Below, piece after piece: positions 18,582 through 35,954 of a stretch of DNA of 43,426 nucleotides. The DNA lies in contig JAAYFY010000040.1 of the NCBI GenBank assembly GCA_012728015.1, forward strand, positions 1 through 43,426, in the 5' to 3' direction. The DNA comes from Clostridiaceae bacterium (GTDB taxonomy: Bacteria; Bacillota; Clostridia; DSM-8532). The notes beneath the pieces were generated by a model, which worked only from the letters and a program-made list of their open reading frames with translations, did no database searches and was not told the DNA's origin. Every line of letters starts with the position of its first letter. Position 1 is the first letter of the stretch. A program made the translations under genes and the position numbers.

Positions 18582-19880
18582 TTATTTGAGGAGAGATGGG
18601 TGAAGAGTAACCTCATCCGGTGGGATGGACTCTACACCCATCTTTTTTAGAACATCTTCGCCATAGAGGGAGGTGAAGATATCACAAGGAGATTTATTCC
18701 CCAAATTCGGTCTTCTGTAGGAGTTAATGTGGTTCATCATAAGGGTTATGTCTTCCTGTGTAAAACCGTCAAGTGATGTTCCTTTAGGGATAATACGCCT
18801 GATTAGTGTATGGTTGTTTTCAGCAGCACCTTTCTGGTATGGGGCTTGAGGATCACAGTAGAAAACCCATGCCCTGCGCATTCCTTCTGCATCAAATTCA
18901 ATGGAGTTCGGATTGGAAAACTCGCTGCCGTTATCCCCAAGCAATACTTGAAACAGTTCGCAAAAAACAGCAGGTTGAAGTTCTCTATAGAGCCGGTTGA
19001 ATATGTCAATGACAGATTGAGAAGTATTGGCATCCCGAATAAATGCAAGCATGAGCTGAGGTACGGTAAAATGCAATGTCAACAGCACCTTTCCACCTAC
19101 TCTTCCCTCAAGTGAATCCATTTCCACAACAGGAACCCCTGGGTGTTCTTCCATGAACTTAAGGAAATCCTGATAAGTACGAACGATCCGGCACTTTTTA
19201 TCCACCTTGAACTGGACCTTCTTCTTTTTTCGTTTCCCCATCCGTACAACACGCGGCATATCAATATTTCTTGCCCTAAAGAGGCCCATGTCCACATAAT
19301 TGCACAAGGTAAGTTCATCAACCATGATTTCATCCATATGGTTAACGCATATATGGTGGAGTGACTGGCCCTTCTTAATCAGTGGAGTGATAAGAGCATC
19401 CAGCCCTAAAGCATCTTCTTCAGTGAGTTGTATTCCCTGTCGTGATTCAGAGCGTACTTGTTCGTATTACTTTTGTGCTTTCGCCGCTGAGTAAATCCTC
19501 TTCTCCAGCGTACAGGATGTTTTATCCTCGCATCCATTGCAAACATAGGGAGGTTTTAAAAGTCTTTGGCATATTTCCTTGCGATACAGGGAACATAAGG
19601 TCGTACACGAGCGGGACGAACAAAAGCAACAGTTACGCCTACACGTCCTCCTGCCGCAAAGATACCGAATGGTACAGTCTTTCCGAATCATACAGTCATT
19701 GAAGGCCTGTCCATAACAGCCTGTCTTCCTGAACTGAACATGATTCCTTACTTCCTTTGCAATTGTAGATGGGGCTTTGGCAAGTTTGCGACTAATTCCT
19801 TTAAATGAATCTCTTTCCCCCAATCCTTGTTCAATAATGAGCCTTTCATCATAGGTTAGATGTTTACGTCTGTTTTCCAT
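18582..19880 (-). pseudogene. IS30-family transposase interrupted by an in-frame TAA
   Basis: The N-terminal part (19880 to 19470, 137 codons) has the helix-turn-helix typical of IS30 (HLTYDERLIIEQGLGERDSF, ISRKLAKAPSTIAKEVRNH) and a Cys-rich stretch. A TAA at 19469-19467 stops it. Translation in the same frame continues directly with YEQVRSESRQGIQLTEED and reaches the DDE domain: EMDSLEG, LLGDNGSEF and KGAAENN. No bases are gained or lost, so this is one nonsense change, not a frameshift. The ATG at 19337 could start a 251-residue DDE fragment, but it would lack DNA binding. The intact protein would be about 432 residues. Confidence 0.88.
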
Positions 19881-21484: not shown

Positions 21485-21513
21485 TTGCAATGGCTTACAG
21501 GTAGTATTATAAT
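21485..21513 (+). promoter_or_regulatory. Promoter of the metal-efflux operon
   Basis: TTGCAA at 21485-21490 and TATAAT at 21508-21513, with a 17-nt spacer. The operator begins 3 nt downstream, so a bound repressor would cover the transcription start. Confidence 0.8.
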
Positions 21514-21515
21514 TA

Positions 21516-21539
21516 ACATGTGAACATGTGTTCATATGT
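21516..21539 (+). promoter_or_regulatory. ArsR/SmtB-type operator
   Basis: A 24-bp imperfect palindrome with core TGAACA-TG-TGTTCA (21521-21534) and outer arms ACAT and ATGT. The 12-2-12 layout is that of SmtB, CzrA and CadC operators. It lies at the start site of the operon whose first gene encodes a repressor of this family. Confidence 0.8.
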
Positions 21540-21566
21540 TCAACCGTAATGCGGAGGGGTGAGACC

Positions 21567-21932
21567 ATGGAGATAGGGAATGAAAGCAGGAACCTGCAGA
21601 ACCAGCCTGTGGTTGATAAAGAGCTCGTGGAGGAAGTAAAGCATAAGATGCCCGATGAAGAACTGCTTTATGACCTTGCAGAATTCTTCAAGGTTTTCGG
21701 TGATTCAACACGTATAAAGATAATCTGGGCTCTCTTTGAAGCGGACATGTGTGTCTGTGACATAGCAAACCTTCTGAACATGAGCCAGTCGGCCATATCC
21801 CATCAATTGAGGGTTCTTAAAAATTCCCGGCTGGTGCGGTATAAGAAATCGGGTAAAACCGTTTATTATTCACTCAACGACGACCATATCAAGAAAATAT
21901 TCGAGCTGGGCATGGAACATATCATGGAATGA
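21567..21932 (+). CDS. ArsR/SmtB-family metal-sensing repressor (CadC/CzrA-like)
   Basis: A 121-residue winged-helix repressor that leaves its operator when metal binds. The DNA-reading helix is in MSQSAISHQLRVLKNSRLV. Two metal sites can be read. C62-x-C64 in the helix before it (DMCVCDIA) is the alpha-3 thiolate site seen in CadC and ArsR. D105-x-H107 with H118-x2-E121 at the C-terminus matches the alpha-5 zinc site of SmtB/CzrA. Having both suggests Zn, Cd or Pb sensing. GGAGGGG precedes the ATG at 21567. It is 36 nt upstream of the efflux ATPase and surely regulates it. Confidence 0.92.
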   Translation: MEIGNESRNLQNQPVVDKELVEEVKHKMPDEELLYDLAEFFKVFGDSTRIKIIWALFEADMCVCDIANLLNMSQSAISHQLRVLKNSRLVRYKKSGKTVYYSLNDDHIKKIFELGMEHIME

Positions 21933-21968: not shown

Positions 21969-24074
21969 ATGGAAACTACCAGGCACCAGTGGAACTTGAC
22001 AGGGCTTGGATGCGCCGGTTGCGCAAATAAAATAGAAACAGCCGTTCGAAAGATGGAGGGTGTGGCTTCAGCGCGCCTTGATTTTGCCAACTCAAAATTC
22101 TATGTGGAAATAAACAATGATCAGGATGCCAATGGTATACGGGAACGCATAGAATCCATTATTTCCGACATAGAGCCAGGCTGCTGCATAAATGATACCG
22201 AGGCAGCCGAAAATGACTACCGAATGCTTTTCAGAAGGCGCATAGTCATTTACATAATAGGTCTTGTGATCTTTATAGCCGCGATTATCCTTCCTGAGCA
22301 AAGCTGGCCGGAAACCCTTCTGTTTATAATGGCCTGGCTTATCTTCGGAGGACAGGTTATAGCGAAGTCCTTCCGGAATATCCTCAGGGGCAGGGTGTTT
22401 GACGAGAACTTTTTAATGACCATCGCTACCATAGGGGCCTTTATCCTGGGCGAGTATGCCGAAGGCGCGTCGGTTATGCTGTTCTACCAGGTCGGGGAGA
22501 TGTTCCAGGATTATGCCGTTGACCGGTCAAGAAGATCTATCAGGAAACTATTGGATATCAAGCCCGAGTATGCCAACATAATGACAGAAAGCGGTCCGGA
22601 AAAAGTATCACCGGCCAATGTAAGGCCGGGTGACAGGATCATGGTCTTCCCCGGCGAACGGGTCCCGCTTGACGGCAGGGTGCTGGAGGGATATTCATCG
22701 GTGGACACCTCTCCGCTTACGGGTGAATCCCTGCCAAAAGATGTCCAGGAAGGGGACGAGGTGCTTTCGGGAAGCATCAACCAGTCCGGGGTGTTAACCC
22801 TGGAAGTGGCAAAGAGCTATGAGAACTCCACTGTCAGCAGGATCCTGGAACTGGTGCAGAACGCGTCGGGCAGAAAAGCGGTCACCGAGCGGTTTATAAC
22901 GCGCTTCGCCGCAAAGTACACTCCCGCTGTTGTCGGGCTTGCGGCAATGCTAGCCATACTTCCGCCGCTTTTTACCAATACTCCCTTCAGCCAGTGGGCG
23001 TACAGGGCTCTCGTGTTCCTTGTAATTTCCTGCCCCTGCGCCCTGGTGATCTCCATCCCGCTGGGCTTTTTCGGCGGGATCGGAGCCGCGTCCAGGCGGG
23101 GCATACTGGTTAAGGGAGGCAACTACCTGGAAGCCCTGGCCAGGACCGACACCATGGTGTTCGATAAAACCGGGACGCTGACCACCGGCGTATTCCGGGT
23201 GACAGGCATAGTGCCGCGCCAGGGATTCACAGGGCAGGAGGTGCTTCACTATGCGGCCTGTGCCGAGAGCTATTCCACCCATCCGCTGGCGCGATCGGTC
23301 CTCGAAAGGTACGGTGAAAATCCCGATCCTGCCCGGATGGACGACCACGCTGAGATACCGGGAAAGGGCGTCCGCGCCAGGGTTGACCGAAAACAGGTTC
23401 TCTGCGGCAACAGAAGATTGATGGAGGACCATGGAATTTCGGTGGAAGAAAGAGCTTCGGCCGGAACGTCGCTCTATGTTGCCGTGGACGGGGTTTACGC
23501 AGGGAGAATCGATATGGAAGACACCTTAAAGCCCGACGCTGTATCAGCCATGGAAAGCCTGCGGGCCATGGGGATTCATGATACTGTGCTCCTAACCGGG
23601 GATGTCAGGGAAGCAGCCCATTATGCGGCGGGGCGCCTGGGGATTGGCAGGGTGCATCATCAGCTTCTTCCCCAGGACAAGGTAACGGTGCTGGAGAGTA
23701 TCATCGATGAAAAGAAAGGGTCCGGGCCGGTGGTGTTTGTGGGAGACGGAATCAACGATGCCGCGGTTATCTCCAGGGCCGATATAGGCATAGCCATGGG
23801 CGGCATCGGTTCTGACGCAGCTATAGAAGCGGCGGATATTGTCATCATGAATGACGAGGTCGGAAAACTTTGCGACGCTGTCGCCATTGCCAGGAAAACA
23901 AGACGCATCGTATTCCAGAACATCGTTTTGGCACTGGGGGTCAAGATCCTGTTTCTGGCCATGGCCACAGGCGGGCTGGCCACCCTGTGGGAGGCAGTCT
24001 TCGCCGATGTGGGCGTTGCCCTTCTTGCGGTTCTGAACGCCATGCGCATAATAAAAGCCGGAAGCTCCGGGTGA
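21969..24074 (+). CDS. P1B-type Zn/Cd/Pb-exporting ATPase (CadA/ZntA-like)
   Basis: A 701-residue membrane pump that uses ATP to expel divalent metal ions. The N-terminal metal-binding domain has GCAGC (C15, C18). After several membrane segments comes the actuator loop with SPLTGESLP. The ion-path motif CPC is near residue 354-356, the phosphorylated Asp is in DKTGTLT near 399, then HPLARSV and GDGINDA near 592. The last membrane helices hold the Lys (KILFLA) and Asp (ADVGVA) typical of the Zn/Cd subgroup rather than the copper subgroup. GGAGG lies 9 nt before the ATG. It forms an operon with the ArsR-type repressor. Confidence 0.93.
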   Translation: METTRHQWNLTGLGCAGCANKIETAVRKMEGVASARLDFANSKFYVEINNDQDANGIRERIESIISDIEPGCCINDTEAAENDYRMLFRRRIVIYIIGLVIFIAAIILPEQSWPETLLFIMAWLIFGGQVIAKSFRNILRGRVFDENFLMTIATIGAFILGEYAEGASVMLFYQVGEMFQDYAVDRSRRSIRKLLDIKPEYANIMTESGPEKVSPANVRPGDRIMVFPGERVPLDGRVLEGYSSVDTSPLTGESLPKDVQEGDEVLSGSINQSGVLTLEVAKSYENSTVSRILELVQNASGRKAVTERFITRFAAKYTPAVVGLAAMLAILPPLFTNTPFSQWAYRALVFLVISCPCALVISIPLGFFGGIGAASRRGILVKGGNYLEALARTDTMVFDKTGTLTTGVFRVTGIVPRQGFTGQEVLHYAACAESYSTHPLARSVLERYGENPDPARMDDHAEIPGKGVRARVDRKQVLCGNRRLMEDHGISVEERASAGTSLYVAVDGVYAGRIDMEDTLKPDAVSAMESLRAMGIHDTVLLTGDVREAAHYAAGRLGIGRVHHQLLPQDKVTVLESIIDEKKGSGPVVFVGDGINDAAVISRADIGIAMGGIGSDAAIEAADIVIMNDEVGKLCDAVAIARKTRRIVFQNIVLALGVKILFLAMATGGLATLWEAVFADVGVALLAVLNAMRIIKAGSSG

Positions 24075-24094: not shown

Positions 24095-24122
24095 TTAACA
24101 GCTTCGTCAAATATGGTATAGT
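24095..24122 (+). promoter_or_regulatory. Probable recG promoter
   Basis: TTAACA at 24095-24100 and TATAGT at 24117-24122, spacer 16 nt. Transcription would start at about 24129-24130, at the edge of the long palindrome. Confidence 0.55.
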
Positions 24123-24129
24123 TAGGATA

Positions 24130-24168
24130 TTGAAACAGTGTGAAATCAATGATTTCACACTGTTTCAA
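24130..24168 (+). repeat. Perfect 19-bp-arm palindrome in the recG leader
   Basis: TTGAAACAGTGTGAAATCA (24130-24148), one A, then its exact complement at 24150-24168. No T-run follows on either strand, so it is not an ordinary intrinsic terminator. It begins at the predicted transcription start and ends 26 nt before recG, so it would form a very stable 5' hairpin or a symmetric protein site. Confidence 0.85.
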
Positions 24169-24194
24169 CTTTAGGGTATACGGGAGAATGGTTC

Positions 24195-26267
24195 ATGTCC
24201 GAATATGATAACAGGTATCTTGACTCGCCGCTCAAATACGTGAAGGGTGTTGGTGAAAACCGGGCTAAGCTGTTTTCGAAGCTTGGGCTTTTCACCGTGG
24301 GGGACATCATCCATTACTTTCCCAGGGATTATGAAGACAGGTCGGTGTTCAAGCCCATACTGGAAGCGGCGGACGGTGAGCCCATAACCGTGAGGGTCCG
24401 CTTCGTCACAGGTATCACCGAAACCCGTCCCAGGAGAAACCTGAGCATTCAGAAAGCCATGGTAACCGACGGCGCGTCATTCATGAACGTGACATGGTTC
24501 AACCAGGGCTATGTAAAACAGAACATAGACATATCCCGTGAATATGTTTTTTTCGGTACGGTCAAGCGTGTGGGGTCCCGGGTTGAGATCCACAACCCCG
24601 TATTTGAGGATGCCGAGCAGTCGGGGAACCTAACCGGGCGCATCGTGCCGGTCTATCCCCTGACAAAGGGCATCACCCAGAACATACTCCGCAAAATCCT
24701 GCGCAATGCCCTTAACGCGGTATCGGGTAATATTGTGGACATACTGCCCACAGGTTTCCGCCATCAATACCGGCTGGCCGAAGCGGCCTTCTCCTACGAA
24801 CAGATCCATTTTCCCACCAGCATGGAAAACATGGAGATGGCCAGAAGACGTCTTGTCTTTGAAGAACTGCTGCTGCTCCAACTGGGGCTTTTCTCCATAA
24901 AGGGCACGAACAGCGGCCAAAGCGGTATCGTTATTTCTTCGGTGGATATAAGCCCGCTTTTAAATGCCCTGCCCTTTAGGCTCACTCCCGCCCAGGAAAG
25001 GGTTTTTGAAGAAATACGGGCCGACATGGAATCAGGAAGAAGGATGAACAGGCTCATACAAGGAGATGTGGGCTCGGGCAAGACCATCCTGGCGGTACTG
25101 GCCATGTATATCGCTGCCTCGTCGGGCTACCAGAGCGCGTTCATGGTTCCCACCGAGATCCTTGCCGAGCAGCATTACCGTACTATTGCCCTGCTGTTTG
25201 AAAAGTTCGATATTAAGGTTGGACTCCTTACAGGCGGCCTCAAAAAGAAGGAGAAGGAAGCCATCAAGAAGGAGGCAAGCGAGAACCGGCTGGATGTCCT
25301 TATAGGCACCCATGCGGTCCTGGAGGACAGTACAATTTTCGGTAATCTTGGGCTTGTGATAACAGACGAGCAGCACAGGTTCGGCGTCCGGCAGCGTGCC
25401 AGGCTGTCCCAAAAGGGTGAAAACCCTGATCTCCTTGTAATGACGGCCACACCCATTCCCCGGACGCTTTCCCTGGTGCTTTACGGCGACCTGGACGTTT
25501 CCATTGTGGACAGCCTGCCTCCCGGCAGAAAGCCCGTCAAGACATACGTTGTGGATGAAAGCATGAGGGAGAGGGTTTACCAGTTTATTCGCAAGAATAT
25601 CGCCGAGGGCCGCCAGGCATATATTGTCTGCCCGCTGGTGGAGGAATCCGAGGCTATGGATGTTGAATCGGCCACAGGCCTGGTTGAGAAGATAAGGGAT
25701 GACGCGTTAAAAGGACTTCGTGTAGGGCTGATACACGGCAGGATGAAAAGCGCCGAGAAGGAAGGCATCATGAGGCGGTTTTCCAACGGCGAGCTGGATG
25801 TCCTGGTTTCCACAACTGTCATCGAGGTTGGGGTTAACGTTCCCAACGCCAGTATTATGGTCATAGAAAACGCGGAGCGCTTCGGCCTCGCCCAGCTGCA
25901 CCAGCTAAGGGGCAGGGTGGGAAGAGGACAATACCAGTCCTGGTGTATCCTGATCAACCAGAGCAGTAGCGATATCTCCAGGCAGAGGATGGAGATCATG
26001 GCGATGTCAAACGACGGTTTTGCCATTGCCGAGAAAGACCTTGAACTGAGGGGTCCTGGCGATGTCTTTGGAGTAAGGCAGCACGGCCTTCCCGAGTTCA
26101 GGATTGCCAACCTTTATCGCGATATGGATGTTCTAAAGGATGTGCAGAAGGCTGCCAAACAGATAGTATCCGAAAACCTTCTTGAAAAGGACGAGGCATG
26201 GCGGCCTCTGGCCAGGAGGGTGGAACTTATAGTCAGGAAAAAACTAAAGGATTTGTCCATGAACTAA
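24195..26267 (+). CDS. recG: ATP-dependent DNA helicase RecG
   Basis: Reverses stalled replication forks and migrates branched DNA. The N-terminal wedge/OB domain spans about residues 60-160 (PITVRVRFVTGITETRPRRNL). Helicase motif I GDVGSGKT lies near 289 and the DEQH box near 392, followed by VMTATPIPRTL, TTVIEVGVNVPNA and QLRGRVGRG. The C-terminal LRGPGDVFGVRQHG block is the RecG signature. The 690-residue length is normal. GGGAGA precedes the ATG. It heads a run of housekeeping genes, recG-rsmD-coaD. Confidence 0.96.
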   Translation: MSEYDNRYLDSPLKYVKGVGENRAKLFSKLGLFTVGDIIHYFPRDYEDRSVFKPILEAADGEPITVRVRFVTGITETRPRRNLSIQKAMVTDGASFMNVTWFNQGYVKQNIDISREYVFFGTVKRVGSRVEIHNPVFEDAEQSGNLTGRIVPVYPLTKGITQNILRKILRNALNAVSGNIVDILPTGFRHQYRLAEAAFSYEQIHFPTSMENMEMARRRLVFEELLLLQLGLFSIKGTNSGQSGIVISSVDISPLLNALPFRLTPAQERVFEEIRADMESGRRMNRLIQGDVGSGKTILAVLAMYIAASSGYQSAFMVPTEILAEQHYRTIALLFEKFDIKVGLLTGGLKKKEKEAIKKEASENRLDVLIGTHAVLEDSTIFGNLGLVITDEQHRFGVRQRARLSQKGENPDLLVMTATPIPRTLSLVLYGDLDVSIVDSLPPGRKPVKTYVVDESMRERVYQFIRKNIAEGRQAYIVCPLVEESEAMDVESATGLVEKIRDDALKGLRVGLIHGRMKSAEKEGIMRRFSNGELDVLVSTTVIEVGVNVPNASIMVIENAERFGLAQLHQLRGRVGRGQYQSWCILINQSSSDISRQRMEIMAMSNDGFAIAEKDLELRGPGDVFGVRQHGLPEFRIANLYRDMDVLKDVQKAAKQIVSENLLEKDEAWRPLARRVELIVRKKLKDLSMN

Positions 26268-35886: not shown

Positions 35887-35907
35887 ATAAAGATCATAAT
35901 GTACTAA

Positions 35908-35954
35908 AGGGGATTTGCCTGGCCCCCCTATCAGGCAAATCCCCTGTTGTTTTT
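35908..35954 (+). terminator. Strong intrinsic terminator after the symporter gene
   Basis: AGGGGATTTGCCTG (35908-35921) pairs perfectly with CAGGCAAATCCCCT (35932-35945), followed by GTTG and six T residues. Confidence 0.92.

Follow-up and report, generated by a model that had tools for sequence, protein, structure and literature searches.

A palindrome at the predicted transcription start of recG, conserved within a clostridial genus, as a probable 5' stem-loop of the message

The ompA transcript of Escherichia coli carries a 5'-terminal stem-loop that stabilises the message. Palindromes that are read as DNA include the CIRCE operator of HrcA, with the consensus TTAGCACTC-N9-GAGTGCTAA and a usual spacer of 9, and the operators of the ArsR/SmtB type, which are of the 12-2-12 type. 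The recG gene is, to our knowledge, not usually regarded as a regulated gene, and a literature search on recG in combination with stem-loop, inverted repeat, mRNA stability, promoter or start site found no relevant paper. A passage of PMC3997798 describes the 5' hairpin as a known stabiliser of mRNA in Bacillus, and states that RNase E and RppH require single-stranded 5' termini; titles in its reference list name papA of E. coli and the aprE leader of B. subtilis as further cases of stabilising 5' stem-loops. For Clostridium cellulolyticum, PMC4423207 reports a correlation between abundance and stem-loops at the termini of processed transcripts, with 3' protection being the stronger.

The window, which is the whole stretch of 43,426 nt that was analysed, contains a palindrome immediately upstream of recG, with a left arm TTGAAACAGTGTGAAATCA (24130-24148), a central A (24149) and a right arm TGATTTCACACTGTTTCAA (24150-24168). 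The arms are 100% complementary over 19 nt, giving 39 bases in all, and in a list of nine inverted repeats from the window the palindrome ranks first, in agreement with the first-pass annotation, which had described it as the most perfect there. In 287,019 bases of the same genome, comprising the window and 20 further stretches, 26 inverted repeats have arms of at least 10 nt and the recG palindrome is the longest of them. First-order Markov simulations of the window (n=200, window length, loop of up to 15) gave a longest arm of 8-12 nt in 199 cases and of 14 nt in the remaining one, so that an arm of 19 nt was reached in 0/200. The recG promoter is of the sigma-70 type with an extended -10, and its spacing predicts transcription from about A24129, which places the palindrome at +2; the first-pass annotation had let it begin at the predicted recG start. 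Genes for an ArsR-type regulator and a P-type ATPase lie upstream of recG, and rsmD and coaD lie downstream (Table 1). The promoter of the ArsR-type gene (21485-21534) is followed by a palindrome of its own, TGAACATGTGTTCA (21521-21534), a likely metal-sensor operator. Elsewhere in the window, an IS30-type transposase is spread over two separate frames (18582-19880, minus strand) and is apparently a broken insertion sequence, one frame matching NF033563 at 77.2 bits, below the cut-off of 80. At 35903-35950, a 19-nt inverted repeat, 89% complementary, is followed by a T-run and is a likely terminator.

Table 1. Features of the recG locus, in coordinates of the window
Feature	Position	Strand	Basis
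Heavy-metal P-type ATPase gene (cadA-like), upstream neighbour	21969..24074	+	TIGR01512 530.1 bits, over cut-off
recG promoter TTAACA-16-TATAGT, extended -10 (TG), TATGGTATAGT	24095..24122	+	Promoter scan and conservation
Predicted transcription start, A	24129	+	Inferred from promoter spacing, 7 nt after -10; invariant in 5/5
Perfect palindrome / RNA hairpin, 19-nt arms, 1-nt centre	24130..24168	+	Repeat listing, RNA folding (z -4.72), simulations
Left core arm GAAAYAGTGTG, conserved	24132..24142	+	Five-genome comparison
Variable apical part and loop	24143..24155	+	2, 4, 4 and 8 of 13 positions differ
Right core arm CACACTRTTTC, conserved	24156..24166	+	Five-genome comparison
Ribosome-binding site GGGAGAA, 13 nt past the end of the hairpin and not part of it	24182..24188	+	Sequence
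recG, ATP-dependent DNA helicase	24195..26267	+	NF008165 (890.3 bits) and TIGR00643 (740.7 bits), each above its cut-off

The palindrome is an element under strong selection that is conserved in the genus. The genus was sampled by five genomes, namely that of the window, Clostridiaceae bacterium DTU059 (G001), G002, isolate AS02xzSISU_47 (G003) and Thermoclostridium caenicola DSM 19027 (G004), and in all five the pattern GAAAYAGTGTG-N13/N14-CACACTRTTTC occurs as a single copy, between recG and the same promoter, which it follows directly. RecG identity across the genus is 84-92%, and the fourfold-degenerate sites of recG differ from those of the window at 101/308 (G003), 143/283 (G001), 147/286 (G002) and 132/273 (G004) positions, or 33-51%. 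Over the 22 positions of the core arms, the differences number 0 in G003 and 2 in each of G001, G002 and G004, and 20 of the 22 are invariant across the five species. In the stretch 24110-24129, the other four species show 0, 0, 0 and 1 differences over 20 positions. Ahead of the promoter, the spacer differs between the window and its relatives at 8-10 of 20 positions and the ten bases 3' of the palindrome at 3-5 of 10, and thus the arms and the -10 region have been kept while their surroundings have not. The perfection of the repeat has not been kept either, with 14, 11, 11 and 13 exact pairs in the four relatives against 19 in the window. In all five genomes the core arm lies equally far from the -10, whereas the leader, counted from the predicted start to the ATG, ranges in length between 66 and 92 nt; the element is therefore fixed to the promoter and not to the start codon, as would suit a function at the 5' terminus of the mRNA or in the DNA at +1.

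The same comparison bears on whether the palindrome is a mobile repeat or arose by chance. Inverted repeats do occur in mobile elements, and the IS30-type remnant is only 4 kb away, but each of the five genomes holds one copy, in the same place and under selection, and neither the whole palindrome nor a single arm has a second copy in the 2.19-Mb genome at up to three mismatches. A mobile repeat was rejected on copy number and fixed place, and together with the simulations this leaves the mobile or chance origin next to no probability. The first-pass annotation had held that conservation at the same spot would indicate regulation, and scattered copies a mobile repeat; the former is what was found. 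It had also named two findings that would speak against a regulatory role, of which presence at many unrelated sites did not occur and absence from relatives was encountered, but only beyond the genus.

A strong stem between cadA and recG, where no other plus-strand terminator is predicted, might alternatively be a terminator or attenuator, acting on the upstream cadA-like transcript or on recG itself. The bases after the palindrome, CTTTAGGG, contain no T-run, as had already been remarked, a T-run follows the stem in 0/5 species, the terminator scan does not list the stem, and the recG promoter precedes it in 5/5 species. A terminator was rejected on the lack of the T-run in all five species of the genus, and we consider it very improbable.

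The explanation that best fits the data is a 5'-terminal stem-loop of the mRNA that guards the recG message against 5'-end-dependent decay, and we hold it with about even confidence. Transcription would start at about A24129, with 14-19 pairs of stem directly after the first 1-3 nt; a 5' end closed in this way would impede decay that depends on a pyrophosphohydrolase and RNase J; and the recG-rsmD-coaD message would last longer, with the downstream ribosome-binding site staying clear of the stem. Read in this way, the palindrome would be a sound though rather ordinary type of control element. RNase J is encoded in the same genome (TIGR00649, 667.4 bits, cut-off 400). When the palindrome and its flanks in the window are folded as RNA, the predicted energy is -27.7 kcal/mol (z -4.72). 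The genus probably grows near 60 °C. The predicted stems form in 5/5 of its species at 37 °C and at 60 °C, the energies at the higher temperature being -9.6 to -14.4 kcal/mol, and by promoter spacing they would begin approximately 0-4 nt from the start of the mRNA. The predicted pairing of the core stem is approximately 1.0, and the ribosome-binding site is partly open (0.64-0.68 in the window). As in ompA, papA and aprE, the stem would begin a few nucleotides at most from the start, here a predicted one, and leaves the ribosome-binding site outside; what sets it apart from those leaders is its unusual perfection and its conserved sequence. Among the three ideas of the first-pass annotation, the stabilising 5' hairpin is thus the best fit, the symmetric operator is kept as a less probable candidate, and a cruciform acted on by RecG found no support.

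Changes within the stem are few. One core pair varies, two species having C-G and three U-A, with both arms changed, and two further pairs vary by wobble (U-A/U-G and A-U/G-U) with RNA pairing kept. Ten of the 11 core pairs are invariant. Three species have lost the outermost pair of the repeat and one species the pair next to it, losses that count against the hairpin. Since G001 and G002 share the same hairpin, the five sequences represent four distinct hairpins. The covariation score was matched by 206/500 shuffles and the number of paired cells by 80/500, neither being significant with five sequences, a result that is due to the small number of changes. Sliding the partner by 1-3 columns lowered the paired cells from 90.5% to 32-42%, although this control favours any structure derived from one sequence. 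Rfam matches were at chance level only (E 0.47 and 0.74). The loop between the core arms is 13 or 14 nt long among the five species, a change that RNA tolerates and that supports an RNA hairpin. A 5' stem-loop accounts for the position, the pairing, the wobble changes and the change in loop length. Nevertheless, the invariance of ten of 11 core pairs exceeds what pairing alone needs, which counts against the hairpin and also fits a site that is read as sequence.

With arms conserved as sequence and covariation that is not significant in five sequences, a DNA operator stays a serious rival, possible but clearly the less probable explanation. A dimeric or tetrameric repressor at a symmetric site over +1 would keep recG from being transcribed, in the manner of HrcA at CIRCE. 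Such a role is favoured by arms that remain nearly invariant despite strong divergence, and by their position, +1 being that of many repressor sites. The genome also has a CIRCE-like palindrome just past a -10-like site before groES-groEL. That repeat, TTAGCACTCA-N7-TGAGTGCTAA (L137:9835-9861), follows shortly after a TATAAA. The recG inverted repeat is like CIRCE in being just past the -10, at or near +1, and foldable in the leader RNA; it is unlike CIRCE in having another sequence, which does not match the CIRCE/HrcA operator, a spacer of 13-14 as against 7 in the genome's own copy, and one target only. An operator is further disfavoured by the lack of a second site, each genome having a single one, with no other at up to three mismatches or with 8-18 nt between the arms. 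No further sites were found before other genes, and half-sites in the same genome (up to two mismatches) were hardly more frequent, at 45+36, than the reversed pattern, at 32+42. In addition, the distance between the centres of the half-sites varies (24 or 25 bp) and does not correspond to whole turns, and the paired C-G to T-A change would demand a matched change in both half-sites. The element resembles ArsR/SmtB operators in being palindromic, with an ArsR-type gene two genes upstream, but this gene (21528-21932), the sole adjacent regulator gene, has a palindrome of different sequence at its own promoter. Regulation of recG by the neighbouring ArsR-type protein was rejected for that reason. 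Sites of the CRP/FNR, Rex, NrdR, BirA and LexA types were also considered, but the recG palindrome appears not to fit them in spacing or sequence.

A one-target switch that arose within the genus is an improbable but conceivable variant, in which a dedicated protein would read the GAAAYAGTGTG arms, either as DNA or as an RNA hairpin at +1, and set the level of recG, perhaps on replication stress. In its extreme form, RecG itself would act on the structure. The more specific proposal that RecG or another junction-binding protein recognises an extruded cruciform and thereby feeds back on recG has in its favour the location of the palindrome before recG in 5/5 species. Any palindrome would serve this purpose, yet it is the arm sequence and not the perfection that is conserved, and the element is missing from the 27 other genomes of the family; the chance that the proposal is correct appears slight indeed. 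What was spotted by eye as a palindrome is, from comparative data, a selected and lineage-specific leader element of recG.

The core-arm pattern was present in 0/27 of the other family genomes, and its restriction to the genus, together with low divergence in the core arms and high divergence at fourfold sites, points to a gain at genus level under strong selection. In the sister genus, TATGRTATANT precedes recG in 6/13 loci, and none of these 13 loci has an inverted repeat with arms of more than 8 nt between 150 nt before and 45 nt into recG; the same promoter type without a hairpin was counted in favour of a 5' stem-loop. In three sister-genus loci (L007, L012 and L142), the end of a cadA-like frame, as read by eye, precedes recG. 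The distance from -10 to ATG, counted by eye, is 38 nt in L007 and 72 nt in the window, from which it seems that a hairpin-sized insert was gained in the genus between +1 and the ribosome-binding site. The same promoter type with and without the hairpin offers a natural comparison for the effect of a 5' hairpin, in what is probably a thermophilic clostridial relative, and this comparison includes the three loci with the same kind of upstream neighbour.

A covariance-model search, in which up to 150 candidates were scored per genome, gave matches at E<=1 in at least 20 of 32 family genomes, the strong ones being those at recG in the five genomes of the genus. Outside the genus the matches were weak, the best among the candidates scored having an E of 0.0019 in G012. 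Five weak loci were read (L151-L155); none is at recG, and L151, L153 and L154 resemble terminators with T-runs. More widely, 117 recG loci were compared, some records occurring twice, with 8 genus rows set apart and one locus (L079) dropped as it has no upstream sequence. Outside the genus, 8/108 rows have an inverted repeat within 150 nt of recG whose arms reach 9 nt or more, and on this count the idea that recG is generally preceded by a hairpin was rejected. In an unrelated Clostridia MAG (L060), recG comes directly after an inverted repeat whose arms are 31 nt and whose loop is 3 nt long. In seven loci from other genera of the family (L015, L016, L017, L018, L020, L021 and L023), a recG promoter resembling TTGCAT-N17-TAGACT, within 70 nt upstream of the gene, is followed by seven T at the expected start, a run that could give rise to reiterative (slippage) transcription. 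In three of these (L020, L021 and L023), CAAATGCG and CGCATTG, within the last 40 nt before recG, could pair over the ribosome-binding site and the TTG start codon.
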